Assembly (NCBI RefSeq): GCF_001870675.1
Contig: NZ_MEHT01000023.1
Coordinates: 1-64,000, forward strand
Direction of reading: 5' to 3'
DNA: 64,000 nt
DNA from: Roseinatronobacter thiooxidans
GTDB taxonomy: Bacteria; Pseudomonadota; Alphaproteobacteria; Rhodobacterales; Rhodobacteraceae
Shown here: positions 42,314-56,521 of the stretch, in pieces
How the letters are laid out: every line of letters starts with the position of its first letter
How positions within the stretch are numbered: the stretch's first letter is position 1
The notes under the pieces: model-generated
The model's input: the letters and a program-made list of their open reading frames with translations, nothing else
Databases searched by the model: none
Told to the model about the DNA's origin: nothing
Made by a program: the position numbers and the translations under genes

Positions 42314-42856
42314 TCAGAACATGGGCGCGAATTTCCACGCATCGGCATCGGGTGTGACTTCGTCCAGATCATATCCGGCCGCTTGCAACCGCCGTGCAAT
42401 GCCAAGGCCATCCGCGGCCGCGCGGTCCACAAGGGCGCGCCCTGCTTCGATGTCTTGGGCAACGCCGCGCCCGCGGATCATGTCGATCCCGTGGTTATAG
42501 GTGCCTACGGCATCGCCCATCTCGCCAGCCCTCCTGCTCCATTCTGTGGCGCGGTCGGGGTCTTCATCCGCGCCAAGGCCGTTATGGTCCAGCTGGCTCA
42601 TCCAGTTCATGGCCTGCGTCCAGCCCGCATTGGCGCAGGCTTCAAAGATGATGCGGGCCTGTTCATGGCGGCCTGCCTTGGTGGCCAGATATCCATTGGC
42701 GCAGACCATCATATCCACATCCCCGCGTGCCGCGCGCTCGACCAGCCGCTCCAGCGTCATTTCCTCGGGGTTGGTGGTGCCGTATTGCGAAAAGTCTTCT
42801 TCATCCGCCATGGCAGGCAGGGCGAATAGCAGCAGCAGTGCGGCGAGAGCGCGCAT
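42314..42856 (-). CDS. Exported Sel1-like repeat protein of the PQQ region
   Basis: 180 residues with a signal peptide (RALAALLLLFALPAMA). The mature part consists of helical pairs resembling Sel1/TPR repeats: EQARIIFEACANAGWTQAMNWMSQLDHNG, ATEWSRRAGEMGDAVGTYNHGIDMIRGRGV, EAGRALVDRAAADGLGIARRL. Probably a periplasmic scaffold or adaptor. It is the last gene of a five-gene minus-strand operon (binding protein, beta-propeller, ATPase, permease, this gene) associated with PQQ alcohol dehydrogenases. The start ATG is 13 bp after the permease stop. Confidence 0.75.
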   Translation of the reverse strand: MRALAALLLLFALPAMADEEDFSQYGTTNPEEMTLERLVERAARGDVDMMVCANGYLATKAGRHEQARIIFEACANAGWTQAMNWMSQLDHNGLGADEDPDRATEWSRRAGEMGDAVGTYNHGIDMIRGRGVAQDIEAGRALVDRAAADGLGIARRLQAAGYDLDEVTPDADAWKFAPMF

Positions 42857-42868
42857 CTTGTGTCCTCC

Positions 42869-43666
42869 TCAGGGGCTGGCTTTGCGGGTCATGATACCAC
42901 GGGCGGGGTCGAACCCCCAAATGGCAAGCGTCAGAAAAACAGCGAAGGTCAGCGCGACCCAACCCAAAGCTTCAGGATTGAGGCGCATATACAGCGCGAA
43001 GCGGATCAATTCGACCGCGTGGCTAAACGGGTTCCATGCGCAGATATCGCGCAAAAGGCGCGAGGATTCGGCCATGCGCCACAGCGGGTAAAGTGCTGTG
43101 GACAGAAAGAAGACAGGGAAGATCACAAAATTCATCACGCCTGCGAAGTTTTCCAACTGCCGGATGGTCGATGCAAGAAACAGCCCCACAGCCCCCAGCA
43201 TCATCCCAGAGACCAGCAGCGCGGGCAAAACCCAGACATAGCCCATGGGCGGCAATTTGATCCCGTAAAGATAGGCGATGCCAAGAAAGGCATAGACTTG
43301 CAGAATGGACACCAGCACCCCCGCCAGCAGCTTGCAAAACAACAGCCACCAGCGGGGCAGGGGGGCGGTCAGCAACAGCCGCATGGACCCCATCTCGCGG
43401 TCATAAACCAGGGACAGGGCCGATTGCATGGCGTTAAACAGCTGGATCATCGCGCACAGGCCGGGGATGATATAGACTTCATAGGTGATATAGGTCTGAT
43501 AGGGCGGCGTGATCGACAGGCCAAGGGCGGCACGAAAGCCGGCGGCAAAGACGATCAGCCAGACCAGCGGGCGCACAAGGGCTGCCAGAAACCGCTCGCG
43601 CTGGGTCACAAAGCGCAGCGCTTCGCGGATCAGGATCGCCGCGAGGGCGTGCAGGTAGAGGCTCAT
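42869..43666 (-). CDS. ABC-2 type permease, PQQ-dehydrogenase-associated (PedC-like)
   Basis: 265 residues with six hydrophobic segments. ALVRPLVWLIVFAAGFRAAL near the N-terminus, MRLLLTAPLPRWWLLFCKLLAGVL and a C-terminal ABC-2 pattern (FFLSTALYPLWRMAE, WNPFSHAVELIRFALY) mark an exporter-type permease. Such genes recur beside PQQ alcohol dehydrogenases together with the ATPase, beta-propeller and binding protein upstream. Overlaps the ATPase stop by four bases. Exported substrate unknown. Confidence 0.88.
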   Translation of the reverse strand: MSLYLHALAAILIREALRFVTQRERFLAALVRPLVWLIVFAAGFRAALGLSITPPYQTYITYEVYIIPGLCAMIQLFNAMQSALSLVYDREMGSMRLLLTAPLPRWWLLFCKLLAGVLVSILQVYAFLGIAYLYGIKLPPMGYVWVLPALLVSGMMLGAVGLFLASTIRQLENFAGVMNFVIFPVFFLSTALYPLWRMAESSRLLRDICAWNPFSHAVELIRFALYMRLNPEALGWVALTFAVFLTLAIWGFDPARGIMTRKASP

Positions 43667-44391
43667 GTGACCGGCTCTTCGGTCAGGTGCATGAAATGGG
43701 CAGCCAGCCCGCCCTTGGGGGCCAGTTGATCGGCGCGCCCTGTCTGAAGGATTTCCCCCTGATGCAGGATAAGTGCCGTGTCTTCAGGGGCCACTTCATC
43801 CACCAGATGTGTCGCCCAAAGAACGGCGATCCCGTCATCGCGCGCCAACGCATGCACATGCGCAGTGATGGCCGCGCGCGATCTTGTATCAAGGCCCACT
43901 GTGGGTTCATCCAGCAGCAACAGGCGGGGGCGGTGCATCAGCGCACGGGCAATTTCCAGCCGCCGCCGGTGGCCGCCATTCAGATTGCGGGCCTTTTCGC
44001 GCGCACGCTCGGCCATATCCAGCCGTTCCAGCACCGCGCCCGCGCGCAAGGCCGCTTCGCGCCGTGACAGCCCGTGCAGCGCGCCGAAATAGGCAAGGTT
44101 GCGCGCCACGCTCAGGTCCAGGTCCAGCGTCATTTGCTGAAACACCACCCCCATGCATGCCAATGCGGCGCGCGGGTTGGTCTGCAAATCCTGCCCCATG
44201 ACGGCAATGCGCCCCTGCCGCGCCACGAACAGTCGCGTCAGAAGTGCAAACAGCGTCGATTTCCCTGCGCCATTGGGGCCAAGAAGGGCGCAGAACTCGC
44301 CCGGCATGACGCGGAAAGAGACGCTGCGCAGCGCCTCTTTCTTGCCGTAGCGAAAGCTGAGATCCGTGACCTCTAGGGCAGGGTCGTGCAT
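43663..44391 (-). CDS. ABC transporter ATP-binding protein, PQQ-dehydrogenase-associated
   Basis: 242 residues with Walker A GPNGAGKST, Q-loop VVFQQMTLD, a signature variant (LNGGHRRRLEIARALM, Asn in place of Ser), Walker B LLLLDEPTVGLDTRS and switch His in VLWATHLVDE. DrrA/CcmA-like exporter ATPase. Its start shares one base with the beta-propeller stop (TGATG) and its end overlaps the permease, so all are co-translated. Partner of the ABC-2 permease. Confidence 0.92.
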   Translation of the reverse strand: MHDPALEVTDLSFRYGKKEALRSVSFRVMPGEFCALLGPNGAGKSTLFALLTRLFVARQGRIAVMGQDLQTNPRAALACMGVVFQQMTLDLDLSVARNLAYFGALHGLSRREAALRAGAVLERLDMAERAREKARNLNGGHRRRLEIARALMHRPRLLLLDEPTVGLDTRSRAAITAHVHALARDDGIAVLWATHLVDEVAPEDTALILHQGEILQTGRADQLAPKGGLAAHFMHLTEEPVT

Positions 44392-45365
44392 CAGCTATCC
44401 GCAGGCCGGTAAGCAGCCCCCCATGGGAAACGGCCCACCTTGACGGATTTGACCGGCTCTTGGCGTTCCAGATCAATGATCGTGACATCACCTGACACGC
44501 CATTGGTGGTAAACAGCTTGGTTTCGTCATCCGACATGGCCATGTGCCAGACGCGGCGGCCCACCAGATGATAATCCAGCACCTCGTAGGTTTCGGCATC
44601 GACCACGGCAATGCGGTTTGCCGGGCCAAGGGCCACATAAACGCGGGTCATATCTTCGGTCAGCTTGAAGCCCACGGGCTGTATGTCATGGGGGTGCACA
44701 TCGGGGATTTCAAAGCGGATTTCGGCCAGTTCTTCAAAAGTTTCGGTGTCAAACACATGCAGCCCCCCACCAATTTCGGCACTGACGAACAGGCGTTTGT
44801 CGTCGCTGGTGAATTCCGCATGGCGCGGGCGCGAGCCGACAAGCGAGTTCTGGAATATCTCATATGTCTCGGTATTGATCCAATGCGCCATATTGGTGGT
44901 CTCGGACGTAGTGATGGCGATGGTGCCCGCGCGGTTGATGGCCTTGCCTTCGGGTTCCACCCCCACCGGAATTTGCGCCACGATCCGGCGATCCACCACA
45001 TCAAGAACCGAGGTGATGTTGTCATCTTCATTCGAGATGTAGATATGGCGGTTGTCGGGGTGCAGGGCAAAGGTTTCGGGGTTCTCGCCCGAGGGCAGGT
45101 TGTGCAGGATTTCGCGCGTCGCCACATCGATCACCTGAATGGTGCTGTCATCGGATGCACACAGATAGGCCACCTTGTGGTCATGGCTGAACATAATGCC
45201 GCGCGGGCGCGCGCCGACTTGAATCGTCTCGATCACTTCCATGCTGGACACGTCGATGATGCTGATCGTGTTGTCGCGCTCGTTCGAGACCCAGACTTCT
45301 TGCGCCACTGCGGGCGCGGCAAGAAGGGTTGTCAGGGCAAGGGCGGATACTGTGCTGCGGATCAT
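44391..45365 (-). CDS. Periplasmic YVTN-type beta-propeller, PQQ-dependent catabolism-associated
   Basis: 324 residues. A signal peptide (IRSTVSALALTTLLAAPAVAQ) is followed by seven repeats of about 42 residues of the YVTN/NHL type: EVWVSNERDNTISIIDVSSMEVIETIQVGARPRGIMFS, VAYLCASDDSTIQVIDVATREILHNLPSG, and so on. The family occurs next to PQQ alcohol dehydrogenases and this ABC exporter; its biochemical role is not established. The C-terminus WGAAYRPADS closes the last blade. Confidence 0.9.
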   Translation of the reverse strand: MIRSTVSALALTTLLAAPAVAQEVWVSNERDNTISIIDVSSMEVIETIQVGARPRGIMFSHDHKVAYLCASDDSTIQVIDVATREILHNLPSGENPETFALHPDNRHIYISNEDDNITSVLDVVDRRIVAQIPVGVEPEGKAINRAGTIAITTSETTNMAHWINTETYEIFQNSLVGSRPRHAEFTSDDKRLFVSAEIGGGLHVFDTETFEELAEIRFEIPDVHPHDIQPVGFKLTEDMTRVYVALGPANRIAVVDAETYEVLDYHLVGRRVWHMAMSDDETKLFTTNGVSGDVTIIDLERQEPVKSVKVGRFPWGAAYRPADS

Positions 45366-45377
45366 TTGGTTTTCCTC

Positions 45378-46547
45378 TCAGTCGAAGGCCGTGCAGGCCG
45401 TTTCGGGGCGGTCGCGCCCCAATGTGTCAAGGGTGCTGACCTCGTGCAGGAAGCCGGGCATGGGTGTCATGGCGACAAGGGCGGTTTTCGTGGCAACGGG
45501 CATGGGCTGGCGCATCTGGCCGTTCCAGTCCCGAAAGGTGATGGCGGCACCTTTGAAGGCGGCCAGCTCGAACGCATCGCTCAGGATGTAGGCGCGAATC
45601 TCGCCCGCATCGTTGCTGCCTGTGCGTGTCACCGCTTCCCCCACCGCGCGTACAGCTGCCCATGCGGCATAGTCCACAGCCCCCATGGGCCGGTCGGCCA
45701 GCCGTTTGAAACGCAGTTGCAACTGTGCCGCGCCGTAAGCTTCGACACGGTCTGACCATGCGTCGGGGCGCGCGCCGCTCGATCCTGCGACAGGGCGCGG
45801 CTCCCATGCGTTGAATTCAAGGAAGGGTCCGAAATCGCCTGCCTCATCGGCCACAAGCATGACATGGTGGCTGGGGAAATCCTGCGTGAAGACCGGAAAT
45901 TCCTGCCCGATATTGCGGCGCATGTCCGACGACATGTCCCATTCCTTCTCTGCGCGGATGCGCGCACCAAACTTGGTGGCGGAATTGCGCAGGGCTTCGG
46001 CAAAAGCCATATCGCTCTCGCGCTGGCCTGTGATCATGACCAGATCGCCCCATCGTTTTGAAATCAGGAATTGCATCAGGGCATCCGCGCGCATTGCGTA
46101 GCTTGGCATGGTGTGCAGCAGGTTCGCGCGACACGCGCCCTCGCGCAGCGCCTCTGCCTCGGCGCTGGCGTTGAAGATCAGCGCGCTTTGGGCCTCTGGC
46201 AGATCGGCCAGTGCCAGAAGTGCCTCGGCGGGGGCATTCACGACCACGATGCTGTGATCGGCCAGCACGGTGCGCGCGGCCTCCAGCCAGTCATCGCCCA
46301 AAGGCACCACTACATCGCTCAGGCTGTAATTATGGCCCATGAACCCGCCCGTCGTGGCGTTATCTGCCAGCCCCAGTGCCGCGCCCATGCGGCCCAGATC
46401 AGCGGGAACCGGGTCCAGATTGGTCAGCACAGGGGGCCGCTCGATTTCCAGTTCCAGATAGGCAATCGGCACTTCAATCGTAGCCAGCGCGGCATTGGCG
46501 GCAAGGCTTGCGAGAAGGGTCGGAATGACAAGGGGCGTGGGTTTCAT
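45378..46547 (-). CDS. ABC substrate-binding protein, PQQ alcohol dehydrogenase system
   Basis: 389 residues from the ATG at 46547 (GGGAGGAGG upstream). Signal peptide (TPLVIPTLLASLAANAALA), then a periplasmic-binding type I fold reminiscent of branched-chain amino-acid binding proteins: IPIAYLELEIERPPV-like opening, MGAALGLADNATTGGFMGHNYSL, HSIVVVNAPAEALLALADL, DLVMITGQRESDMAFAEALR. Characteristic of PQQ-dehydrogenase gene clusters, where it is paired, unusually, with an exporter-type ABC set. First gene of the minus operon and divergent from the cupredoxin-like gene. Confidence 0.9.
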   Translation of the reverse strand: MKPTPLVIPTLLASLAANAALATIEVPIAYLELEIERPPVLTNLDPVPADLGRMGAALGLADNATTGGFMGHNYSLSDVVVPLGDDWLEAARTVLADHSIVVVNAPAEALLALADLPEAQSALIFNASAEAEALREGACRANLLHTMPSYAMRADALMQFLISKRWGDLVMITGQRESDMAFAEALRNSATKFGARIRAEKEWDMSSDMRRNIGQEFPVFTQDFPSHHVMLVADEAGDFGPFLEFNAWEPRPVAGSSGARPDAWSDRVEAYGAAQLQLRFKRLADRPMGAVDYAAWAAVRAVGEAVTRTGSNDAGEIRAYILSDAFELAAFKGAAITFRDWNGQMRQPMPVATKTALVAMTPMPGFLHEVSTLDTLGRDRPETACTAFD

Positions 46548-46610
46548 ATGGCCTCCTCCCAAAGGTTAGGAAGAGGCTAGCCACAGGGCAGGGCGCGCGA
46601 AATAGGACTT

Positions 46611-46636: not shown

Positions 46637-46693
46637 CCATCGTTGCGCCGCTCTGACTAGGCTGAGACGATCATGCAGATGGAGGAGATAAAC

Positions 46694-47119
46694 ATGATAC
46701 GCATCACGACACTGGCGGCCGCGTCCCTGCTGGCCTTTGGCGGGGCGGCGCATGCGATAGGGGGCGATCTGTCATCGCTGCCCGAGGCGCTGGAGCTGCA
46801 GGTCGGCACCGGAGACAATGGATTTGGCATGGAGCCCAGTGAATTCCAGATGCAAACCGGGCAGGCTTATCGCCTGAAGGTTCAGGCGGTAGGCTGGCAC
46901 GAATGCAACTGGCAAGCGCCACGCTTTTTTCAGAACGCATGGCTGCGCAAGATCGAGGCCGGGAATATGGAAATCAAGGTCGCCCAGCTTAATGAGCTGG
47001 AAATGGATGCAGACGGCGAGGTGGAGCTTTTCTTCGTGCCGATTCGTCCGGGCACATACAGCTTTGGCTGCCGTGGTCTGGAAGATCGCGGGATGACCGG
47101 CACATTTGTCGTCCAATAG
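46694..47119 (+). CDS. Small exported cupredoxin-like protein
   Basis: 141 residues from the ATG at 46694 (GGAGGAGAT upstream). Signal peptide (IRITTLAAASLLAFGGAAHA). The mature domain follows cupredoxin strand order and ends YSFGCRGLEDRGMTGTFVVQ. Candidate copper ligands are His69 (VGWHECNW), Cys126 and Met134. The second His expected between Cys and Met is absent (CRGLEDRGM), so either the copper site is atypical or it is lost. It may carry electrons from the PQQ enzyme or deliver metal. Followed by a separate promoter-like motif and the cytochrome gene. Confidence 0.75.
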   Translation: MIRITTLAAASLLAFGGAAHAIGGDLSSLPEALELQVGTGDNGFGMEPSEFQMQTGQAYRLKVQAVGWHECNWQAPRFFQNAWLRKIEAGNMEIKVAQLNELEMDADGEVELFFVPIRPGTYSFGCRGLEDRGMTGTFVVQ

Positions 47120-47142: not shown

Positions 47143-47197
47143 CGCGGGCAGGGTGGCTTCGCTAGGGTCAATGCCAAGACACAGTCCGGAGGAAAGA

Positions 47198-47908
47198 ATG
47201 CCCTATCATCTGAATATCCTGTCATCGGCGGCACTTGCTGTCACCTTGTCAACATCGCTGGCGCTGGCCCATGGGGATGTCGCACCTCAGCCTGTGAACA
47301 CCGAAGGACTGCCGGACCTTGCCAGCGGGTGGGAGCTTGAAAACCCGTTCCGCGATCCGGCTGGCGACTATTGGGAACGTGCCCTGCGCATCGGTGACAG
47401 CGCCTATAACCAGAATTGCGCGCGCTGCCACGGGCTGGAGGTCGTCTCGGGCGGGCTGGCGCCGGACCTGCGCTATCTGATGGCCGAGGAAATGGATGAT
47501 GAGTGGTATATGGAGCGTATTCGCCGTGGCTCTGGCGAACGGATGCCTGCCTATGAAGATCTGATGAACCAGCAGGCCATGTGGGCGATCCGCACTTTCA
47601 TCGAAACACGGCCAGACCCGGATGGGATTGCCGAATTCATGCCGCGCTTGCGTGACATCCGCGACGGGTTGCGCGACAAACAGGAAGCGATTGCCGCAGG
47701 CACCGCGACAGACGCCGATTATGCCGATGAAATCGCAGCCCTCCATGCCGAGTTGATGGAGATTGCCGTGGCTGTGCCCACCCTGTCAGGCGCACCCAAA
47801 GCCGACAGCATTGCACGCCGCGCGGCGGTTATTCTGGAACGCGGCGGCGAGCGGTTCTTGCGCGATGCGGATGAGACTCTGACCATCGGCCTGTCTGTCG
47901 CGCGCTAG
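47198..47908 (+). CDS. Periplasmic c-type cytochrome of the PQQ system
   Basis: 236 residues from the ATG at 47198 (GGAGGAAAG upstream). Signal peptide (HLNILSSAALAVTLSTSLALA). Single heme-binding motif CARCH (residues 74-78) with a likely axial Met in GERMPAYEDLMNQQAMWAIRTFI. The region after residue about 150 is a charged helical extension. Probable electron acceptor of the PQQ-dependent dehydrogenase (PedF/MoxG-like role). Unusually long for such cytochromes because of the C-terminal helices. Followed 24 bp later by the MoxJ-like gene. Confidence 0.9.
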   Translation: MPYHLNILSSAALAVTLSTSLALAHGDVAPQPVNTEGLPDLASGWELENPFRDPAGDYWERALRIGDSAYNQNCARCHGLEVVSGGLAPDLRYLMAEEMDDEWYMERIRRGSGERMPAYEDLMNQQAMWAIRTFIETRPDPDGIAEFMPRLRDIRDGLRDKQEAIAAGTATDADYADEIAALHAELMEIAVAVPTLSGAPKADSIARRAAVILERGGERFLRDADETLTIGLSVAR

Positions 47909-47931: not shown

Positions 47932-48828
47932 ATGTCCCTCAGAACCTCCCTGTCAGCCGTGATGCTGATGACTGTCCTGACCCTCGCGGGGTCAGGACTT
48001 TTTGCCCGTGAATACCCGTCAGACGATTCAGGCCGTGACCGTGTTGGCATCGACTATGATGCGATCATGGAACGCGGCTATATCGAGGTCGGGGTTTATC
48101 AGGATTTCGCGCCTTATTCGTGGCGCAACGGCTCGGGGCAGTTGGTGGGTGTCGATGTTGATCTGGCGCAGCTTATCGCGGACGGGCTGGGGGTCGAGCT
48201 GCGCGTGATCGATCTGCCCGCAGATGAGGATGTTGACACCGATCTGCGCAACTATATCTGGCGGGGGCATTACATGGGGCGGCGCGTGGTCAACGTGCTG
48301 ATGCGCGTGCCCTATAACCGCGAACTGGATTACCGCAACGAACTGGCCGCGCTGACCGGACGCTATGCGCAGGAACGCATCGCCATTGGCTACCGTGTCT
48401 CGGATTATGCGGACGAGCCACCCTGGCCGGGAAGCTTCACCACCAAAACCGTGGCGGTCGAAAACCACTCCCTGCCCGATTTCTACCTGACCGGATTGCA
48501 ACAGGGCGCGCTGATGTCCAACATCAGCCGCCGCCGCACCCTGTCCGAAGCGGTTGATCTGTTGCGCATGGGCGAGGTGAGTGCGGTGATGGGCAGTCGC
48601 GCGCAGCTGGAGCATTTCCTGCGCGATGACCCGGAATTTGCAGTTGAAAGCGGGCCGTTGCCGGGGCTGGCTATCGGGTCATGGCCGGTCGGTATTGCAA
48701 CGGCATTCTATACAGCGCGGATGCTGAGCTATGAGGTCGATGACATCCTGACAGCGGCCGTGCGCGACGGGCGGGTGGCGGCGATCTACCACGCCCATGG
48801 GCTGAGTTGGGACGAACCGGGGCGGTGA
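47932..48828 (+). CDS. MoxJ-like quinoprotein-dehydrogenase-associated binding protein
   Basis: 298 residues. A signal peptide (SLRTSLSAVMLMTVLTLAGSGLFA) is followed by an SBP_bac_3-like fold: DAIMERGYIEVGVYQDFAPYSWRNGSGQLVGVDVDLAQLIADGLGVEL, then SEAVDLLRMGEVSAVMGSRAQLEHFL. Proteins of this type accompany PQQ methanol/ethanol dehydrogenases (MxaJ/XoxJ). They are thought to help cofactor or metal loading rather than transport. The conserved carboxylate-binding Arg of amino-acid binding proteins is not evident. Second gene after the cytochrome; converges with the ABC genes at 49051. Confidence 0.9.
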   Translation: MSLRTSLSAVMLMTVLTLAGSGLFAREYPSDDSGRDRVGIDYDAIMERGYIEVGVYQDFAPYSWRNGSGQLVGVDVDLAQLIADGLGVELRVIDLPADEDVDTDLRNYIWRGHYMGRRVVNVLMRVPYNRELDYRNELAALTGRYAQERIAIGYRVSDYADEPPWPGSFTTKTVAVENHSLPDFYLTGLQQGALMSNISRRRTLSEAVDLLRMGEVSAVMGSRAQLEHFLRDDPEFAVESGPLPGLAIGSWPVGIATAFYTARMLSYEVDDILTAAVRDGRVAAIYHAHGLSWDEPGR

Positions 48829-48862: not shown

Positions 48863-49053
48863 GTGCCGGATCAAGTCCGGCACGGCGTCGCGCCGGACTT
48901 GATCCGGCGCCTCTTGCCGTGTCTGCCATGTGGAACGGCAGAAAAGCTTGCCTAGAGAAATTTCAGAAAAACTGACAGGTTTTTTGGTTCGAATTTGCGG
49001 CAAAACAGAAAGTTAAAGCGTTTCGGCATCTCAAGGAAACCCGAAACGCTTTA
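48863..49053. repeat. Intergenic repeat element, copy 1
   Basis: Contains two mirror-image hairpins: GTGCCGGA/TCCGGCAC around TCAAG (48863-48883) and GCGCCGGA/TCCGGCGC around CTTGA (48890-48910). Then come CTCTTGCC, an AT-rich block (AATTTCAGAAAAA, CAAAACA) and the AAAGCGTTTCGG hairpin. The part from about 48887 to 49053 matches the reverse complement of 56519-56690 block by block. Both copies lie between convergent genes, so it looks like a dispersed repeat co-opted as a terminator. Confidence 0.75.
49015..49052. terminator. Bidirectional hairpin terminator in repeat copy 1
   Basis: AAAGCGTTTCGG (49015-49026) pairs perfectly with CCGAAACGCTTT (49041-49052), a 12-bp stem with a 14-nt loop. 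Its right end overlaps the stop codon of the minus-strand ATPase gene. It separates the MoxJ-like gene from that convergent gene. Confidence 0.65.
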
Positions 49054-49629
49054 GGCCAATGCGCCCAGCATCATCTGCCGTGTTGCCAGCCGGTCGGCCT
49101 CGGCCTGCGCATGGGTGACGAATACGGTCGCGGGCCGTTGCTCGGCGATCACGCTTTCTGTCAGGGCCAGCATATCGGTGACAAGCGCGGTATCCAGCGA
49201 CACGAAAGGTTCATCCAGCAGCAAAATTGCGGGTTTGGCCGCATAGGCGCGCGCCAGCGACAGCCGGCGTTGCTGGCCAAGCGACAATTGCCCCGGATAC
49301 ATCCCGCCCTTGCCCGCAAGCCCCACGCGCGCCAGCGCGGCTTGTGCCTGCGTGGCATCTACCCCTGCTGTCAGGCGCAGATTGTCCAGAGCTGTGCGCC
49401 ACGGCATCAGCGTGGGTTCCTGAAACACCATCGCCAGACGCCCCTCGCGCCGGATCTCGCCGGTGAAATCTGCATCCAGCCCTGCCAGCAGGCGCAAGAG
49501 CGTTGACTTGCCAACCCCGGAGGGCCCAAGCACCGCCAGCACCTCGCCGCGCCTGACCTGAAACATGACATCGCGCAAGACAGGCAGCGCGCCAAAGCTT
49601 TTGGCGTGGATGGCCGCGTGCAGGCTCAT
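49051..49629 (-). CDS. ABC transporter ATP-binding protein (NitT/TauT type) in the PQQ region
   Basis: 192 residues, short for the family. Walker A GPSGVGKST, Q-loop MVFQEPTLMPWRT, signature LSLGQQRRLSLARAYA (Gly-Gly replaced by Leu-Gly), Walker B ILLLDEPFVSLDTAL, switch His in VFVTHAQAEADRLA. It lacks the usual C-terminal 40-60 residues. The ATG at 49629 overlaps the permease stop (ATGA). Third gene of a minus-strand importer operon divergent from the PQQ dehydrogenase. Confidence 0.9.
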   Translation of the reverse strand: MSLHAAIHAKSFGALPVLRDVMFQVRRGEVLAVLGPSGVGKSTLLRLLAGLDADFTGEIRREGRLAMVFQEPTLMPWRTALDNLRLTAGVDATQAQAALARVGLAGKGGMYPGQLSLGQQRRLSLARAYAAKPAILLLDEPFVSLDTALVTDMLALTESVIAEQRPATVFVTHAQAEADRLATRQMMLGALA

Positions 49630-50444
49630 GCCTCTCTCCAACGGCGCGCGCGCGCCTCGAGAGGTTGCAAGACCAGCGTTTCAATCGCCAGCATGACCCC
49701 GATAAAGCTGAGCGCATAGACCATCACCATTGTCACATCGAACATCTGGAAATGCAGGTGTATCTTGAACCCAACCCCTTGTCCGCGCCCCAGAAATTCC
49801 ACCACCAGCACAATCTTCCAGATCAGGCTGAGGCCCGAGCGCGCGGTCGAGGCCAGATGCGGCGCAAGCTGCGGCAGCAGGATATGGCGCAGGCGTGCCA
49901 TGCGCGTCATGCCGAACACCTGCGCCATATCGGCCAGCTGGCCGTTCAGCGCGCGCGCCCCTTCGCGCAACATGGCCGTGACCAGCGGGATTTTATTGAT
50001 CGCCACGGCCACGATGGCGGCGGTTTCATTCAGCCCGATCCATAAAAAGCACAGCACAATCACCACCAGCGCGGGCAGGTTGAGGAAAAACACCAGCCAC
50101 GGGTCAAGCCAGCGGTTCAGCCTTGGCATAAGCCCCATCAGAATGCCAAGCACCAACCCCAGCGACATGGCAGCGACGAAAGCCTGCACCACCCGCCACA
50201 GGGTGGCCCCCAGATGATGCCACAACGCGCCCGACATGGCTTCGGCCCCAAGGCGCGGCAGCACGATCTGCGGCCCCGGCAACACCATCGGATCGGCCTT
50301 GAGCCATGACAACCCCCACCAGAAGACCAGCAGCCCCGACAGCGACAGCCCGCGCACCACCCAGTTTGGCAAGGCGCGGGGTGGGGGAATGGCACTCTGT
50401 CCGCTGGTCAGGCGGGCGGTGTCACTCAGCGCCATGCGGGTCAC
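49626..50444 (-). CDS. ABC transporter permease (NitT/TauT type) in the PQQ region
   Basis: 272 residues, about six helices, with the coupling motif MAQVFGMTRMARLRHILLPQLAPHLASTARSGLSLIWKIVLVVEFLGRGQGVG. The GTG at 50444 overlaps the stop of the binding protein gene (GTGA); an ATG nine bases later is possible. Forms one importer with the neighbouring genes. The ligand is unknown; an organic metallophore, cofactor precursor or alcohol-derived acid are all conceivable. Confidence 0.9.
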   Translation of the reverse strand: MTRMALSDTARLTSGQSAIPPPRALPNWVVRGLSLSGLLVFWWGLSWLKADPMVLPGPQIVLPRLGAEAMSGALWHHLGATLWRVVQAFVAAMSLGLVLGILMGLMPRLNRWLDPWLVFFLNLPALVVIVLCFLWIGLNETAAIVAVAINKIPLVTAMLREGARALNGQLADMAQVFGMTRMARLRHILLPQLAPHLASTARSGLSLIWKIVLVVEFLGRGQGVGFKIHLHFQMFDVTMVMVYALSFIGVMLAIETLVLQPLEARARRWREA

Positions 50445-51412
50445 GATCCCAAAGGCACAAAAACACCTTCCGGCAGGTCGGTTGCCGTGCCAACCAGCTC
50501 TTCTCCGCCCAGTTCCACCATCAGGCGGAACATGGTCCGCGCCGAGGCTTCGCTGATCGGGCCATCACTGGGAACGCCTGCCCGAAACCCTGCCTTGAGG
50601 GCTGAAAATTCCCCGTCATCTGCGGCATTCATCACCGGGCGCAACCTGTCCCAATCTGCGTCAGAGGTGGTCAGTTGCGTTTTCGCATCGCGCGAGGCAG
50701 CAGCGAAGGCGGCCACCAGTTCGGGCCTCTCTGCCACCAGCGCGGATTGGACCACATAGCCCAGAAGTGGCATTGCAGGGTCCATTCCCAGCGCCTCTGC
50801 CGCGTCCGAGACGGAAATCAGATGCCGCATCCCTGCGGCTTCCTGTTTGGCCATGAAATGCCAGAAATTGATCGCACCGCCCAACTCACCCGAACGCGAG
50901 GTCTGAAAGATCAGCGGCGGGGCACCGTAAACCTGTTCGGTCGCGGCCATCAGATCAAACCCTTGCTGCGCCGCATAGGCGCGCAGGATCAGCCAGCTTT
51001 TGTCATTTGGGCCACCGGCAATGCCGATCTTCTCACCGGCCAGATCCTGCAAGGTCCGGGCGGGGCTGTCTGCGGGCACCATCACCCCCCCGACAGCACG
51101 GCTATAGGGGATAAACGCGATATCCTGACCCGCTGCCCGCTGCCGCGCAACCCAGATCCAGTCATCGACAATGACATCGACCGCGCCGCCCTGAAAGGCA
51201 ATCTGGCCCGCTGCCTTGCCCGCGACCTCTTGTATCTCCAGTCGAAAGCCGTTGGCGGTGTCGAAGCCGTGGTGCCGGATTGTGTCCAACTCCCATGCGA
51301 CAGTGCCGCCAGCCTGACTGGCGATTGTCAGGACCGGTAAATCCGCCAGAACCGGACCGGCGGCAAAGGTCAGCGCGAAGGCCGCGCGCCGGAAGCTTGT
51401 GAATATCGACAT
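50441..51412 (-). CDS. ABC substrate-binding protein (NMT1/SsuA-like) in the PQQ region
   Basis: 323 residues. A signal peptide ([20 protein letters not shown]) is followed by [68 protein letters not shown], a pattern of the NitT/TauT binding-protein class. Start ATG at 51412 has GGGAGGAGA upstream; the frame extends further upstream but only through the divergent promoter and the dehydrogenase gene. Divergent from the PQQ dehydrogenase and sharing its promoter region, so it is likely induced with it. Confidence 0.9.
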
Positions 51413-51438
51413 GGTCTCTCCTCCCAACATGTGACCGC

Positions 51439-51625: not shown

Positions 51626-53371
51626 ATGAATAGATTTCTGCTGGCAGTCTGTGCCGGGCTTATGGCCGCACCCATGGCCGTGGCGCAGGTCACGGATGCC
51701 GATCTGGCGCAAGATGATGTGGTCACAACCAGTGTTCTGACCAACGGCATGGGGCGGCATATGCAGCGCTACAGCCCGTTGGACCAGATCAACAAGGACA
51801 CTGTGCAAAACCTGTTTCCTGCATGGAGCTTCAGCTTTGGAGGAGAGCGCCAGCGCGGGCAGGAAAGCCAGCCACTGGTTTATGACGGGGTTATGTATGT
51901 CACCGGCTCTTACAGCCGCGTCTTCGCGCTGGACATCAAGACAGGACGCAAGCTGTGGCAACATGATGCGCGGCTGCCCGAAGGCATTTTGCCCTGCTGC
52001 GATGTGATCAATCGCGGGGCCGCAATTTATGGCGACAACATCTATTTTGGCACACTGGATGCGCGCATCGTCGCGCTGAACCGGCATACTGGCGCGACAG
52101 TCTGGAACAAGCGCATTGCCGATTACCGCGAAGGCTATAGCTATACCGCAGCCCCCCTGATTGTGAACGGGCTGGTGATTACAGGCAATTCGGGCGGTGA
52201 ATTCGGCATTGTCGGCGCCATCGAGGCGCGCGATGCCGAAAACGGTGATCTGGTCTGGCGGCGTCCGGTGATCGAGGGGCACATGGGCGAGTTGAACGGC
52301 GAAGAAAGCACCATGACCGGCACGTTGAACGCATCATGGCCCGGTGATCTGTGGAAAACCGGCGGCGGTGCGCCATGGCTGGGCGGCACCTATGACGCTG
52401 AAACCGACACGCTGATTTTCGGCACCGGCAACCCTGCGCCATGGAACAGCCACCTGCGCGAAGGTGACAACCTCTATGCGGCCAGCCGCGTGGCACTTGA
52501 CCCGGCCACAGGCGAAATCAAGTGGCACTACCAGACAACCCCATGGGAAGGCTGGGATTATGACGGCGTGAACGAGGTGATCCCCTTCACCGATGCCGCA
52601 GGCAATGGCCGTCTGGCCACTGCGGATCGCAACGGCTTTTTCTACCTGCTGAACCGCGAAGACGGGACATTTGTCGATGCGATGCCCTTTGTCGAGGAAA
52701 TCAGCTGGGCCAGTGGCATTGGCGAAGATGGCCGCCCGATCTTCAACCCCGATAACCGCCCCGGCAACCCGGCAGAGTCGGCAGATGGGGACCGCGGCGA
52801 GGTGGTCTGGGCCGTGCCGGGCTTCCTTGGGGGCAAGAACTGGCAGCACATGGCCTATTCCCAGCGCACCGGCTATTTCTATGTGCCCGCGAATGAATGG
52901 GGTATGGATATCTGGAACGAGCCGATCACCTATCGTCAGGGGGCCGCGTATCTGGGTGCGGGTTTCACCATCAAGCCCCTGTTTGAAGACCATATCGGCG
53001 CGCTGAAAGCGATTGACCCCAACACGATGGAAATCAAGTTTCAGGTCAATAATGCCGCGCCTCTGTGGTCTTCGGTCATGGCAACGGCAGGCGGGTTGGT
53101 GTTCTACGGCACGCCTGAAGGCTATATCAAGGCCATCGATGACGAAACCGGCGAGGTTGTCTGGCAGTTCCAGACCGGGTCTGGCGTGGTCGGCCAGCCA
53201 ATCACATGGGAAGATGAAGACGGTGTGCAATGGCTGTCGGTCGTGTCCGGCTGGGGCGGGGCAGTTCCGCTTTGGGGGGGCGAGGTTGCGCAGCAGGTCG
53301 CCTATCTCAATCAGGGCGGGTCGGTCTGGACCTTCCGCATTCCTGATGCGCTTCTCGCCTCTGCGCAATGA
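51626..53371 (+). CDS. PQQ-dependent alcohol dehydrogenase, predicted lanthanide type (ExaF/PedH-like)
   Basis: 581 residues, signal peptide [20 protein letters not shown]. Eight-bladed quinoprotein propeller with the vicinal disulfide pair Cys124-Cys125 ([10 protein letters not shown]) that contacts PQQ. The catalytic Asp is Asp311 in [10 protein letters not shown]. Two residues later is Asp313; an Asp here marks lanthanide-dependent enzymes, whereas calcium enzymes have Ala or Ser. The [22 protein letters not shown] segment is closer to ethanol-type than to MxaF methanol dehydrogenases. Oxidises alcohols in the periplasm and passes electrons to cytochrome c. GGGAGGAAG lies before the ATG. 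No PQQ synthesis genes are in the window. Confidence 0.93.
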
Positions 53372-53489: not shown

Positions 53490-55598
53490 ATGTTCATGAT
53501 TCTTCGCCTCATTGTCCTGTCATGTCTTTTTGCCCTGCCTGCCCGCGCGCAAGTGCTGTCGGCGCAAGACATGCAGGCCTATGTGCCGCCGCCCTTCGCT
53601 TTGGGCGAGGCGCTCAATGACAAGGGGCTATACCGCGTCGTGAATTCCGGGGGCGCACCTGCGGGCTATGCGTTCACCACCCAGCCCTATGCCCCCTTGC
53701 CGGGCTTTGCCGGTGCACCCGTCAATGCGTTGGTGGTGCTGGACCGCGATGGCACCTTTGTCACCGTGCGCGTGGTTCATCATAACGAGCCGATCTTCAT
53801 CTCGGGCATGGGCGAAGGCCCGTTTCGAGAGTTTTTTGAACAATATGCCGGCAAGTCGATCTGGTCGCCCATGTCCATCGGCACGCCCTATGGCGGCGCG
53901 GATGCGGGCTCGTCGCTGGTGCATCTGGACGGCATCTCCAAGGCCACGGCGTCGGTGCGCATCGCGCATGAATCGATCATGGCCGCAGCGCATGCGGTTG
54001 CGCGCGAACATATGCAGGGCCGCGTTGCCGCCCCTGCCGCGCGCCCCGATCCCGAATATGACGCGCCGTTGCACTGGGCCGATCTGGTCGAACAGGGGCT
54101 TGCCCGCCACTTGCGCGTCACCAATGCCGAGATTGACGCAGCCTTCAAGGGCACGCGCTGGGCTTATTCCGACCCTGCCGCGCAGGCTGATCCCGATGGC
54201 CTGTATCTCGACCTTTGGCTGGTCGATGTGACGCCGCCCGCATTGGCGCGCGCAGCGCTGGATCAAGGCACGATCGACCAGATGAGGCGCTTTCAAGGCG
54301 TGGCCCCGACCGATGAATTCCTGCTGCTGATCGATGCGGGGCGGCATGGGTTGGTCAGTGACAGTTTCGTGCGCAACACCGCGCCCGATCTGATCAAGGC
54401 GGAACAGGGCGGCTTTCCCATCGCCCTGCGCGATGCCGATTTTCTGGTCGATCTGGCCCCCGGTGTGCCCGAAGGGACCGCCCTGATCCTGCGCACCGAT
54501 CGTCGTCTGGGGTTCAATCCGGCCGAGCCGTTCACCCTGATCATCGAGGCCGTGCGCGAGCATGGCTTTATCACCCCTGAAATCGGGCGGGTAGAGCTGG
54601 CGCTGGAGCATCAGACCGATGAACGCTTCTTCCTGCGCGAGAAAATCATCACCCCGCTGCCCCCATGGCTGGAAGCGCTGTATAATCGACAAGTTGATCT
54701 GGCCCTTCTGGCGCTAGGGCTGGCCGCACTGGTCTGGGCACTGGGGGCGCGCATGAACCGCTTTGCCGCATGGCGCCATTTCACCCCCGCGCGGCTGCTG
54801 ATCCTTGCGGTGATGACCGGCTTTGTAGGCTTCTGGGGGCAGGGGCAGTTGTCCATTGTGACGCCGCTGGGCGTGCTGCGCACCACGCTTGAAGGCGGGT
54901 CTTACCTGTTCTTGCTTTATGATCCCTTCTCGCTGATGGTCTGGGCGGCGGCGGGGCTTGGGTTTGTGCTTTGGGGGCGGGGGCTGTTTTGCGGCTGGTT
55001 GTGCCCTTTTGGCGCGCTTCAGGAATTTGCACACCATCTGGGCCGCGCCCTGCGCCTGCCGCAGATCGAGCCATCGGCCCAATGGGACAAGCGCCTGAAA
55101 TCGCTGAAATACATAGCCCTTGGTGGGCTGGTCGGCTTGGTCGCCTTCGCGCCCCAGCATGTGGACACAGCCGCCGAGATCGAGCCGTTCAAAACCGCGA
55201 TTACCGTGTTTTTCCTGCGCGAGTGGTATTTTGTCGCCTATGCCGCCTTTTGGCTGCTTGCGGGGATGGTGCTGTTCAAGGGGTTTTGCCGCTATCTCTG
55301 CCCTCTCGGTGCGGTCATGGCCCTTGGCGGGCTGGTCCGGGGCCGCGACTGGATCGCGCGGCGCGCGGAATGTGGCAGCCCCTGCCAGCTTTGCCGCGTG
55401 AAATGCAGTTATGGTGCCATCGAGAAAAGCGGCAAGATCGCCTATTCCGAATGTTTCCAATGCCTTGATTGTGTCGCCATCCATGATGACGCGACACGCT
55501 GCGTGCCGCTTGTACTGGCCGCGCGCAGGGCAGGGCGGGCGGAACCTGTCGGAACAGTGCCCAAGCCAGTTTCCCCGCCGCAGGAAGCCCCCGTATGA
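53490..55598 (+). CDS. NosR/NirI-like membrane flavin/iron-sulfur electron-transfer protein
   Basis: 702 residues. Signal peptide (FMILRLIVLSCLFALPARA), then a periplasmic FMN-binding domain with the flavin-transfer motif DGISKAT (147-153; Thr153 is the expected attachment residue). About 240 residues of periplasmic sequence follow, then some five to six helices (from about residue 400) with two CxxxCP motifs (FCGWLCPFG and FCRYLCPLG). The C-terminal cytoplasmic ferredoxin-like cysteines are CGSPCQLCRVKC and CFQCLDC plus C at TRC. In NosR this layout carries electrons across the membrane to periplasmic enzymes. No nos or nir genes are present; here it sits behind a PQQ dehydrogenase and overlaps the flavin transferase gene. 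Confidence 0.9.
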   Translation: MFMILRLIVLSCLFALPARAQVLSAQDMQAYVPPPFALGEALNDKGLYRVVNSGGAPAGYAFTTQPYAPLPGFAGAPVNALVVLDRDGTFVTVRVVHHNEPIFISGMGEGPFREFFEQYAGKSIWSPMSIGTPYGGADAGSSLVHLDGISKATASVRIAHESIMAAAHAVAREHMQGRVAAPAARPDPEYDAPLHWADLVEQGLARHLRVTNAEIDAAFKGTRWAYSDPAAQADPDGLYLDLWLVDVTPPALARAALDQGTIDQMRRFQGVAPTDEFLLLIDAGRHGLVSDSFVRNTAPDLIKAEQGGFPIALRDADFLVDLAPGVPEGTALILRTDRRLGFNPAEPFTLIIEAVREHGFITPEIGRVELALEHQTDERFFLREKIITPLPPWLEALYNRQVDLALLALGLAALVWALGARMNRFAAWRHFTPARLLILAVMTGFVGFWGQGQLSIVTPLGVLRTTLEGGSYLFLLYDPFSLMVWAAAGLGFVLWGRGLFCGWLCPFGALQEFAHHLGRALRLPQIEPSAQWDKRLKSLKYIALGGLVGLVAFAPQHVDTAAEIEPFKTAITVFFLREWYFVAYAAFWLLAGMVLFKGFCRYLCPLGAVMALGGLVRGRDWIARRAECGSPCQLCRVKCSYGAIEKSGKIAYSECFQCLDCVAIHDDATRCVPLVLAARRAGRAEPVGTVPKPVSPPQEAPV

Positions 55599-56521
55599 GC
55601 GCGCTGTCCCGCCGCCGCTTTCTGACCATCGCGGCCTGCACCGCGCTGGCAGGCTCTGGCCAGAGCCTGCCGCCCGCACCGCGCATGACATGGCGCGGCA
55701 CAGCGCTTGGGGCCGATGTCAGCATCACGCTGGACGGCCCCGAGGCGTTGACGCGCGCAACCCTTGCGCGCGCTCGTCTGGAACTGGAAGCCTATGAGGC
55801 GCGTTTCAGCCTGTTTCGGCCAGATTCCGATCTTGTGAGGCTGAATACACAAGGCGAGCTGCCTGATCTGGATGCGCGCTGGCAGGATATGTTGGGCCTG
55901 AGTGATCGTCTGCACCGCGCCACCAATGGTGCGTTCGACCCGACCATACAGCCCTTATGGCTGGCCCATGCGCGCGGGGGGGATGTGCGGGCGGCGCGCG
56001 CTCTGGTCGGTTGGCAGCGTGTCGCCCTGCCAACCGACGCGCGGCGCGGGGTGCGCCTTGCTGCGGGGCAGGCGCTAAGTTTCAATGGCATCGCCCAAGG
56101 CATGGCCACAGATGCGGTCACCGCCACGCTAAAGGCTGCCGGAATGCAGCGCGTCATGGTCGACATGGGCGAGACAGCCGCGCTGGGTGGCCCGTGGCAT
56201 CTGGGGGTGGCTGATCCGGACCGGGGGCATTTTGCAACTGTTCAGCTGAAAAACAGGGCTATGGCTGTCTCCAGCCCTATGGCGCTGCGGCTTAGCACTG
56301 GCGCGCAGCATATCTTGCACCCGCAAGGGCGCATGCAGGCGCATTGGTCCAGTGTCGCAGTCATTGCGCGCAGCGCTTCTGTTGCGGACGGATTTTCTAC
56401 GGCGGCCTGTTTCATGACCAAGGCCGAGCTGCAGGCTTGCGCGATCCGCTTGGGCGGGATTGACCGTGTTCTTCTTCTGGACCATCACGGCACCCGTGAC
56501 ACGGTTTTGATCCATAGCTAG
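55595..56521 (+). CDS. apbE: FAD:protein FMN transferase (ApbE family)
   Basis: 308 residues with a twin-arginine-type signal (SRRRFLTIAACTALAGSG), so it acts in the periplasm. Family blocks are EAYEARFSLFRPDSDLVRLN, LHRATNGAFDPTIQPLW, FNGIAQGMATDAVTATLKAAGMQRVMVDMGE and the metal-binding end SVADGFSTAACFM. It transfers FMN from FAD to a Thr or Ser of target proteins. The obvious target is Thr153 of the NosR-like protein, whose gene it overlaps by four bases (ATGA). Comparable to NosX. Its 3' end runs into repeat copy 2. Confidence 0.92.
   Translation: MSALSRRRFLTIAACTALAGSGQSLPPAPRMTWRGTALGADVSITLDGPEALTRATLARARLELEAYEARFSLFRPDSDLVRLNTQGELPDLDARWQDMLGLSDRLHRATNGAFDPTIQPLWLAHARGGDVRAARALVGWQRVALPTDARRGVRLAAGQALSFNGIAQGMATDAVTATLKAAGMQRVMVDMGETAALGGPWHLGVADPDRGHFATVQLKNRAMAVSSPMALRLSTGAQHILHPQGRMQAHWSSVAVIARSASVADGFSTAACFMTKAELQACAIRLGGIDRVLLLDHHGTRDTVLIHS

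Follow-up and report, generated by a model that had tools for sequence, protein, structure and literature searches.

A NosR-like flavin/iron-sulfur protein associated with lanthanide-type PQQ alcohol dehydrogenases in Roseinatronobacter thiooxidans and other bacteria

Which system does a NosR-like protein serve when its gene lies behind that of a pyrroloquinoline quinone (PQQ)-dependent alcohol dehydrogenase (ADH)? The question is raised by a stretch of 64,000 nucleotides from Roseinatronobacter thiooxidans (Rhodobacteraceae, Pseudomonadota; assembly GCF_001870675.1, contig NZ_MEHT01000023.1, positions 1 to 64,000), referred to here as the window, in which the NosR-like gene follows an ADH gene and is itself followed by one for an ApbE flavin transferase (Table 1). 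A preliminary description of the locus had suggested that the protein may link periplasmic alcohol oxidation to cytoplasmic or quinone electron pools. We call the protein NosR-ped and find that across genomes it accompanies ADHs of the lanthanide (Ln) type together with the cytochrome PedF. Such enzymes are widespread, and the accessory proteins that keep them in repair are poorly understood.

In a sample of 198 genomes of the family, 42 carry an orthologue of NosR-ped. An orthologous ADH (at least 71% identity, orthology being called by identity and the metal-site motif read only in loci with sequence in view) is present in 39 of these 42 carriers and in 1 of the 156 other genomes, and PedF exceeds its cut-off in 40 carriers compared with two non-carriers. 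NosZ, on the other hand, is over its cut-off in 12 carriers and in 38 of the others, which is the level expected by chance (P 0.56). As far as gene content can tell, NosR-ped tracks the Ln-type ADH and PedF and is independent of NosZ; the tie to the PQQ enzyme that was proposed from a single locus is thus upheld, and is far stronger across genomes than that locus indicated. Carriers without the orthologous ADH are G020, G122 (76% complete) and G191, and those without PedF over the cut-off are G020 and G098 (84% complete). Partner genes also occur in two genomes without NosR-ped, G147 (73% complete) and G002; in G002 the only ADH match at 1e-100 is of the calcium type (WDFS), PedF is present and there is no ped-type NosR. 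The one other genome of the same genus that was searched (G179) has neither a NosR-ped orthologue nor an orthologous ADH.

The association also extends to gene neighbourhoods and beyond the family. PedF is in view in 31 of the 40 orthologous loci that are seen for at least 5 kb on both sides, the ped link recurs on plasmids of Aquabacterium and Variovorax, and at two distant loci (L194 and L197) PedF, ADH and PedG-like genes adjoin the NosR-like gene. The phylum sample comprises 398 genomes; a ped-type copy was typed in 16 of them, and each of these 16 encodes an ADH whose motif is of the Ln type. In six of these the stretch around NosR-ped holds no ped gene, yet the Ln-type ADH and PedF are found elsewhere in the genome. 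We had considered these six 'orphan' Gamma-like relatives as a separate system, and reject this on account of the partner genes found in all six; at the three of their loci with annotated neighbours, the neighbouring genes are unrelated.

The genome of R. thiooxidans itself (3.50 Mb in 50 contigs, 100% complete) has no NosZ over the cut-off of TIGR04244, the one NosZ model that was run (the clade II model was not), and the best match, at 23 bits, is confined to the end of that model; a nosZ in the genome would have told against the preliminary proposal. The nos and nir references find no match in the window, the stretch to which the search for nirS, nirK and norB was confined. A single NosR-family protein is present, and in view of this and of the lack of a NosZ over the cut-off we reject a NosR left over from denitrification. 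Single matches were likewise obtained for FMN_bind (flavin mononucleotide, FMN) and for ApbE, so that the ApbE encoded next to NosR-ped has no other detected substrate of the FMN_bind family. In the family sample, 30 of the 42 carriers lack NosZ over the cut-off (with a match of 298 bits below it in G016), and each of the 12 carriers with NosZ holds at least one further NosR-family copy. A NosR-like gene alone is no safe sign of nitrous oxide reduction.

By its sequence the NosR-ped gene is intact and encodes a complete NosR-type flavin/iron-sulfur membrane protein. The NosR model NF046105 spans residues 24–679, PF12801 is matched at 46.5 bits, and hydrophobic stretches lie at approximately 397–420, 431–454, 475–510, 536–554 and 573–616. 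The match to PF04205 (FMN_bind) is marginal, at 21.8 bits (22.2 with frame neighbours) against a cut-off of 22, and is absent from the matches at 0.001 in a scan of the whole of Pfam. The putative flavinylation residue, Thr153, is threonine in all 49 orthologous rows of the alignment, and each of the 12 putative redox cysteines (501, 505, 600, 604, 628, 632, 635, 639, 655, 658, 661 and 671) is kept in all 48 or 49 rows that have a letter there, one row being truncated. The same 13 residues are common to 43 of 43 nos-linked rows, 15 of 15 nir-linked rows and 11 of 11 side rows. In the preliminary description the protein was read as a full NosR-type protein, coupled by an ATGA overlap to its probable flavin transferase and following the PQQ dehydrogenase, and each of these points is confirmed: the residues are invariant among orthologues, the two open reading frames (ORFs) overlap and the second matches PF02424, and the ADH gene ends 118 bp upstream on the same strand. 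Among 51 orthologous loci, 46 have ATGA where the NosR-like gene ends, a count that reads this stop only, and in nine of nine annotated plasmid clusters the start of the FMN transferase overlaps it by four bases.

A predicted structure of NosR-ped places its FMN-binding domain in the RnfG/NqrC fold. Residues 23–177 of the model align with RnfG (7zc6_G; Z 11.3, root-mean-square deviation 2.9, 128 aligned) and with NqrC (4xhf_C; Z 9.0, root-mean-square deviation 3.7, 143 aligned). The model was built from 11 sequences and has a mean predicted local distance difference test (pLDDT) score of 66.5; most of the periplasmic part is confident, the membrane and iron-sulfur parts are unreliable, and the loop before Thr153 (residues 134–152) scores below 50. 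A second periplasmic domain (residues ∼200–381) gives only weak beta-sandwich matches, with Z at most 5.2. Searching the PDB with the sequence gave no match at 0.001, and Foldseek with the whole model returned nothing below 0.001, RnfG being best at 1.7e-3.

NosR-ped is nonetheless no NosR, to judge from its place in the tree, its flavin site and its score with the NosR model. In a tree of 121 rows, one branch with a support of 100 in the Shimodaira–Hasegawa-like approximate likelihood ratio test (SH-aLRT) parts 60 ped-side rows, comprising the 49 orthologues and 11 Beta, Gamma and Alpha relatives, from 61 others, of which 43 are nos-linked, 15 nir-linked (all of the nir rows) and three of other kinds; hence it does not clade with true NosR, the placement that would have told against the preliminary proposal. 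Ped genes are in view for 41 of the 60 ped-side rows and not for 19. The tree is a quick search with ORFs read from the upstream stop; one row of more than 1000 residues was shortened to the final 760, the long rows L072, L204 and L194 are unsurely placed, and the label 'other' takes in orthologues at contig ends. The flavin site of the ped side reads DGxxKAT[AV]S, with Lys151 in all 49 orthologous rows and in 10 of the 11 side rows. The nos rows mostly read SGATVT and have glycine in 42 of 43 where the ped side has lysine before AT, whereas the 15 nir rows have arginine (11), glycine (3) or histidine (1) at this position. Serine replaces the lysine in the ped-side protein of G267 and in the class loci L154, L176 and L178, the motif being readable in all but five of 56 loci. 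The NosR-ped score of 412.5 bits with NF046105 lies far below the curated cut-off of 1000, and identity to NosR and NirI is about 25–35%. In four annotated plasmids, homologues of ∼30% identity sit in one nirS cluster and three nosRZDFYLX clusters.

The ADH encoded upstream is, by its metal-site motif, of the lanthanide (PedH) type. Its ORF opens at 51431, although the start that precedes the signal peptide is probably the one given in Table 1. The nearest solved relative is 6zcv/6zcw (794 bits), which is deposited as a quinoprotein ethanol dehydrogenase and which we take to be PedH; ExaA (1flg) comes second at 648 bits. The motif is WDYD in the window ADH, WDFD in 6zcv and WDFS in ExaA, and WD[YF]D, with the second aspartate, occurs in 49 of 49 ADH alignments of at least 58% identity, some genes being seen twice. 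That lanthanide enzymes require this aspartate is stated in the title of a reference in PMC12997753.

We suggest, tentatively and with somewhat less than even confidence, that NosR-ped is a dedicated member of the ped system, serving as an outward relay that keeps the quinoprotein system active. ApbE would attach FMN to Thr153 in the periplasmic RnfG/NqrC-like domain, and the two CxxxCP motifs and the C-terminal [4Fe-4S] ferredoxin domain would link the flavin with the membrane and the cytoplasm. Acting in the manner of NosR, the protein may draw on the quinol or cytoplasmic pool and deliver electrons to the periplasm, where they could serve the maturation or rescue of ADH, PedF or PedG; candidate targets are a disulfide of the vicinal cysteines of the ADH, a PQQ adduct or an off-state. 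The same job would apparently be done in related clusters by a set of SoxYZ-like, SoxH-like and CXXCW-rhodanese proteins. Catalytic electrons from the alcohol would leave through PedF, as in Pseudomonas, and the retention of PedF means that an outlet for them exists. The outward direction is favoured because it fits the relatives NosR and PceC, the presence of PedF and a Sox module that tends to occur in alternation with NosR-ped, as described below. NosR is proposed as the physiological donor to N2O reductase, the copper centres of which assemble without NosX (PMC7660919), and PceC as a possible donor to its reductase (PMC5928378).

The flow envisaged in the preliminary description is the reverse, from the reduced PQQ enzyme through FMN and the iron-sulfur centres to the quinone or cytoplasmic pool, parallel to PedF. 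Electron entry at the level of quinone would conserve more energy, and the tight co-occurrence of NosR-ped with the ADH speaks for such an inward relay. Free FMN has a potential of -205 mV, however, [4Fe-4S] centres are usually low and PQQ lies at about +90 mV. The middle steps would accordingly run uphill, although this is a weak point given that flavoproteins range from +153 to -495 mV (PMC5928378). This direction was described as a role not established for the family; it had in fact already been published as a prediction, in which a flavoprotein takes the role of cytochrome c550 (PMC8238504). We reject such a substitution for NosR-ped: the c550 homologue PedF exceeds its cut-off in 40 of the 42 carriers and is present in the window, and so NosR-ped does not stand in for it. 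Moreover, the best-known homologues are proposed to be donors to periplasmic enzymes (PMC7660919, PMC5928378), and overall we regard an inward relay as unlikely. Of the earlier interpretation, the NosR-type relay, its own ApbE and the tie to the PQQ ADH stand, whereas the inward flow is either not right or not shown.

Two further roles seem still less attractive. NosR-ped could be a sensor that couples transcription to the redox state of the ADH or the periplasm, the function first assumed for NosR. The family model NF046105 is indeed named a transcriptional regulator, and nosR has a part in the transcription of nosZ as well as in the reduction of N2O by whole cells (PMC7660919). We found no DNA-binding or kinase domain in NosR-ped, however, and several clusters of this kind have genes of their own for a response regulator and FIST/PAS kinases, none of which was found in the window; a sensor is thus highly improbable. 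The occurrence with Ln-type enzymes next to transporter genes might instead point to redox chemistry in metal or cofactor supply, for example in freeing a bound or oxidised lanthanide or other metal for a PedA1A2BC-type transporter or for the apo-enzyme. But Ln(III) cannot as a rule be reduced in cells, and in Azospirillum three Ln-ADH clusters whose transporter is annotated alike show no NosR-like gene in view. We give this explanation very little credence.

The tendency to alternate, on which the outward relay partly draws, concerns a rhodanese, a SoxYZ-like carrier and a SoxH-like hydrolase. Section 15 of a 2026 review of the ped system (PMC12997753) names these as associated with Ln-ADHs, with suggested roles in the formation of disulfides, in stabilising cofactors or in protecting PQQ. 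SoxYZ is in view at 3 of 52 orthologous NosR-ped loci and at one of the 36 with PedF in view; here and below, absence of Sox genes means absence from the stretch in view. In the phylum sample, none of 16 NosR-ped genomes and 6 of 14 others have a Sox gene less than 1.5 kb away from the Ln-ADH (P 0.005), and when only genomes outside the family are counted the figures are 0 of 10 and 6 of 14 (P 0.024); these are Fisher tests, which ignore shared ancestry. On plasmids, 12 Ln-ADH loci comprise five with NosR only, six with Sox only, none with both and one with neither, and five Ca-type ADH loci comprise three with Sox, none with NosR and two with neither, all 17 having been chosen by hand for distinct organisms from the best 60 of 122 records. 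Scanning from the SoxYZ side, with 80 loci kept of at least 303, a NosR-like gene is found in one (L314) of the 57 kept loci that have an ADH in view. The two modules thus tend to alternate and sometimes stand side by side, to go by their gene neighbourhoods. Both the alternation and the co-presence fit two systems that serve one enzyme; neither proves one job. It is possible, albeit doubtful, that NosR-ped and ApbE are a non-homologous replacement for SoxYZ, SoxH and the CXXCW rhodanese as a 'quinoprotein relay', with a flavin and iron-sulfur centres in place of sulfur carriers and the same upkeep of Ln-dependent PQQ ADHs. If this is true, two unrelated periplasmic redox systems share one maintenance job.

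Several points weigh against an outward relay that alternates with the Sox module, among them the shared ancestry to which the tests above are blind. The direction of flow and the target are ones that we infer, and the function of SoxYZ and SoxH is itself only proposed. In the phylum sample 33 genomes have a PedH-like ADH (at least 57% identity; the motif was read in 30 and is of the Ln type in all, G259, G437 and G435 being unread); no ped-type NosR was detected in 17 of them, and NosR-ped is therefore dispensable for the enzyme in general. The NosR scan scored two candidates per genome, and of the 66 genomes with a match 37 were assigned to the ped, nos or nir type; absence of the ped type is not firm in the remaining 29, mostly lower-scoring and untyped, one of which (G518) has a PedH-like ADH. 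G518 is also one of the 14 genomes counted as NosR-ped-negative, and is Sox-positive. Eight of the 14 NosR-ped-negative Ln-ADH loci have no Sox gene within 1.5 kb, neither module is in view in Sinorhizobium fredii GR64 or in G147, and Maliponia (L265, Rhodobacterales) has an Ln-type ADH, PedF and Sox genes with no NosR-like gene in view. The rhodanese, SoxYZ-like and SoxH-like genes were not found in the window, to which the search for them was confined. Finally, a NosR-like gene is also present at 10 of the 80 SoxYZ loci (by title, eight from Rhodobacterales genera or Paracoccaceae, one alphaproteobacterial metagenome-assembled genome and one beta-proteobacterium), nine of which have no ADH in view. 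Strict mutual exclusion, which we had also considered, is broken by these ten loci, leaving a tendency only. A flavin relay that tracks Ln ADHs and tends to be found instead of a sulfur-carrier module points to a common, testable function for both.

Table 1. Features of the NosR-ped locus and the surrounding ped cluster (positions in the window)
Feature	Position	Strand	Basis or remark
NosR-like FMN/Fe-S membrane protein, ped type (NosR-ped)	53490..55598	+	702 aa
Periplasmic FMN-binding domain, residues 23-177	53556..54020	+	predicted model matches RnfG/NqrC; PF04205 marginal
Flavinylation motif DGISKATAS (D147-S155), includes Thr153	53928..53954	+	row alignment
First CxxxCP motif (C501, C505)	54990..55007	+	row alignment
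Second CxxxCP motif (C600, C604)	55287..55304	+	row alignment
C-terminal two-cluster ferredoxin cysteines (C628-C671)	55371..55502	+	row alignment; no structural confidence in model there
ApbE flavin transferase	55595..56521	+	308 aa; PF02424 137.4 bits, cut-off 25.6; ATGA overlap with NosR-ped gene
PQQ alcohol dehydrogenase, PedH (lanthanide) type	51626..53371	+	TIGR03075 734 bits
WDYD: catalytic Asp and second Asp of lanthanide enzymes	52553..52564	+	ExaA has WDFS
PedC-type ABC permease	42869..43666	-	TIGR03861 426 bits, cut-off 241
PQQ_ABC_ATP	43663..44391	-	TIGR03864 344 bits, cut-off 302
PQQ-associated beta-propeller	44391..45365	-	TIGR03866 474 bits, cut-off 287
PQQ_ABC_bind	45378..46562	-	TIGR03863 453 bits, cut-off 413.6
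Small cupredoxin-like periplasmic protein	46673..47119	+	28% to hypothetical protein of related clusters
Cytochrome c-550 PedF	47153..47908	+	TIGR04494 169 bits, cut-off 122
PedG/MxaJ/XoxJ-like periplasmic binding protein (family-3 solute-binding protein)	47932..48828	+	
NMT1/SsuA-type ABC importer	49051..51412	-	ATPase 49051-49641, permease 49626-50444, binding protein 50441-51412

The name PedG-like rests on the conserved place beside PedF and on section 14 of PMC12997753. According to section 7 of that review, the PedA1A2BC ATP-binding cassette (ABC) transporter imports lanthanides in Pseudomonas putida, and the PQQ-ADH-associated ABC genes of the window (42869–46562) presumably do likewise. 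The small protein encoded next to pedF is secreted and has a plastocyanin-like match (9pcy, E 7e-4), with no Pfam or NCBIfam family at 0.001; its homologue in related clusters lies between the beta-propeller and ABC ATPase genes. In other genomes the NosR-like gene often has the NMT1/SsuA-type permease gene as its divergently oriented neighbour, and an importer annotated in the same way comes after pedF in Azospirillum (L251, L341). A Sel1-repeat protein gene at the edge of the cluster (42317–42784), the product of which is 57% identical to one in Phaeobacter, is present in many of the ped clusters compared. The window has no match to pqqB, pqqC or pqqE, which were searched for in the window only, and the clusters L116, L337 and L339 carry or adjoin pqq genes. 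The same three clusters have a three-subunit molybdenum hydroxylase, of the xanthine dehydrogenase type by annotation, between the ApbE and PedG-like genes, and this is a candidate for the aldehyde oxidase of the same pathway. We note also that the contig titled Enemella evansiae (L256) has a PedF/SoxYZ/SoxH/ADH cluster with Sox genes 97–98% identical to those of Ponticoccus alexandrii, and that its title is probably wrong.

Compared with published systems, NosR-ped shares with NosR of nosRZDFYLX clusters and with NirI the order of domains, the flavinylation threonine, the two CxxxCP motifs, the ferredoxin cysteines and an ApbE partner (NosX or NirX), and differs in the side of the tree, the residue before AT, the score with the NosR model and the lack of a NosZ found in its own genome. 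PceC/RdhC and NapH have a similar membrane module with CxxxCP, and PceC also has an exocytoplasmic covalent FMN; PceC is without the C-terminal iron-sulfur clusters (PMC5928378). To our knowledge NapH has no FMN domain. The ped cluster of P. putida, as given in PMC12997753, likewise has the Ln-type ADH PedH, PedF, a PedG-like protein and ped-type ABC transporter genes, but has PP_2666, PP_2677 and PP_2678 (rhodanese, SoxYZ-like and SoxH-like) where the window has the NosR-like/ApbE pair; the terms ApbE, FMN and 4Fe-4S are absent from the main text of that review.

A further parallel is with the clusters of Meheust et al. (2021; PMC8238504), in which a flavinylated NapH-like protein is proposed to accept the electrons of an alcohol oxidase, as cytochrome c does elsewhere, and in which ExaA-linked flavinylated clusters are counted in 172 genomes with several independent origins. 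These have in common with the window an FMN-binding domain, a PF12801 membrane iron-sulfur protein, ApbE and a PQQ ADH, whereas the window keeps PedF and has an ADH of the Ln type. All of our rows with ped context fall on one side of the tree, in a sample drawn by similarity to NosR-ped that other origins would escape. Among the literature matches listed, mostly open-access papers, Meheust et al. alone deal with NosR-like proteins and PQQ ADHs, and none joins NosR-like proteins to lanthanide enzymes or to the Sox-like module. A flavinylated NosR/NapH-like relay with a PQQ ADH has thus been known since 2021; what is new, among these matches, is a clade with its own flavin-site signature, a tie to the Ln-type enzyme, the retention of PedF and a tendency to alternate with the Sox module.

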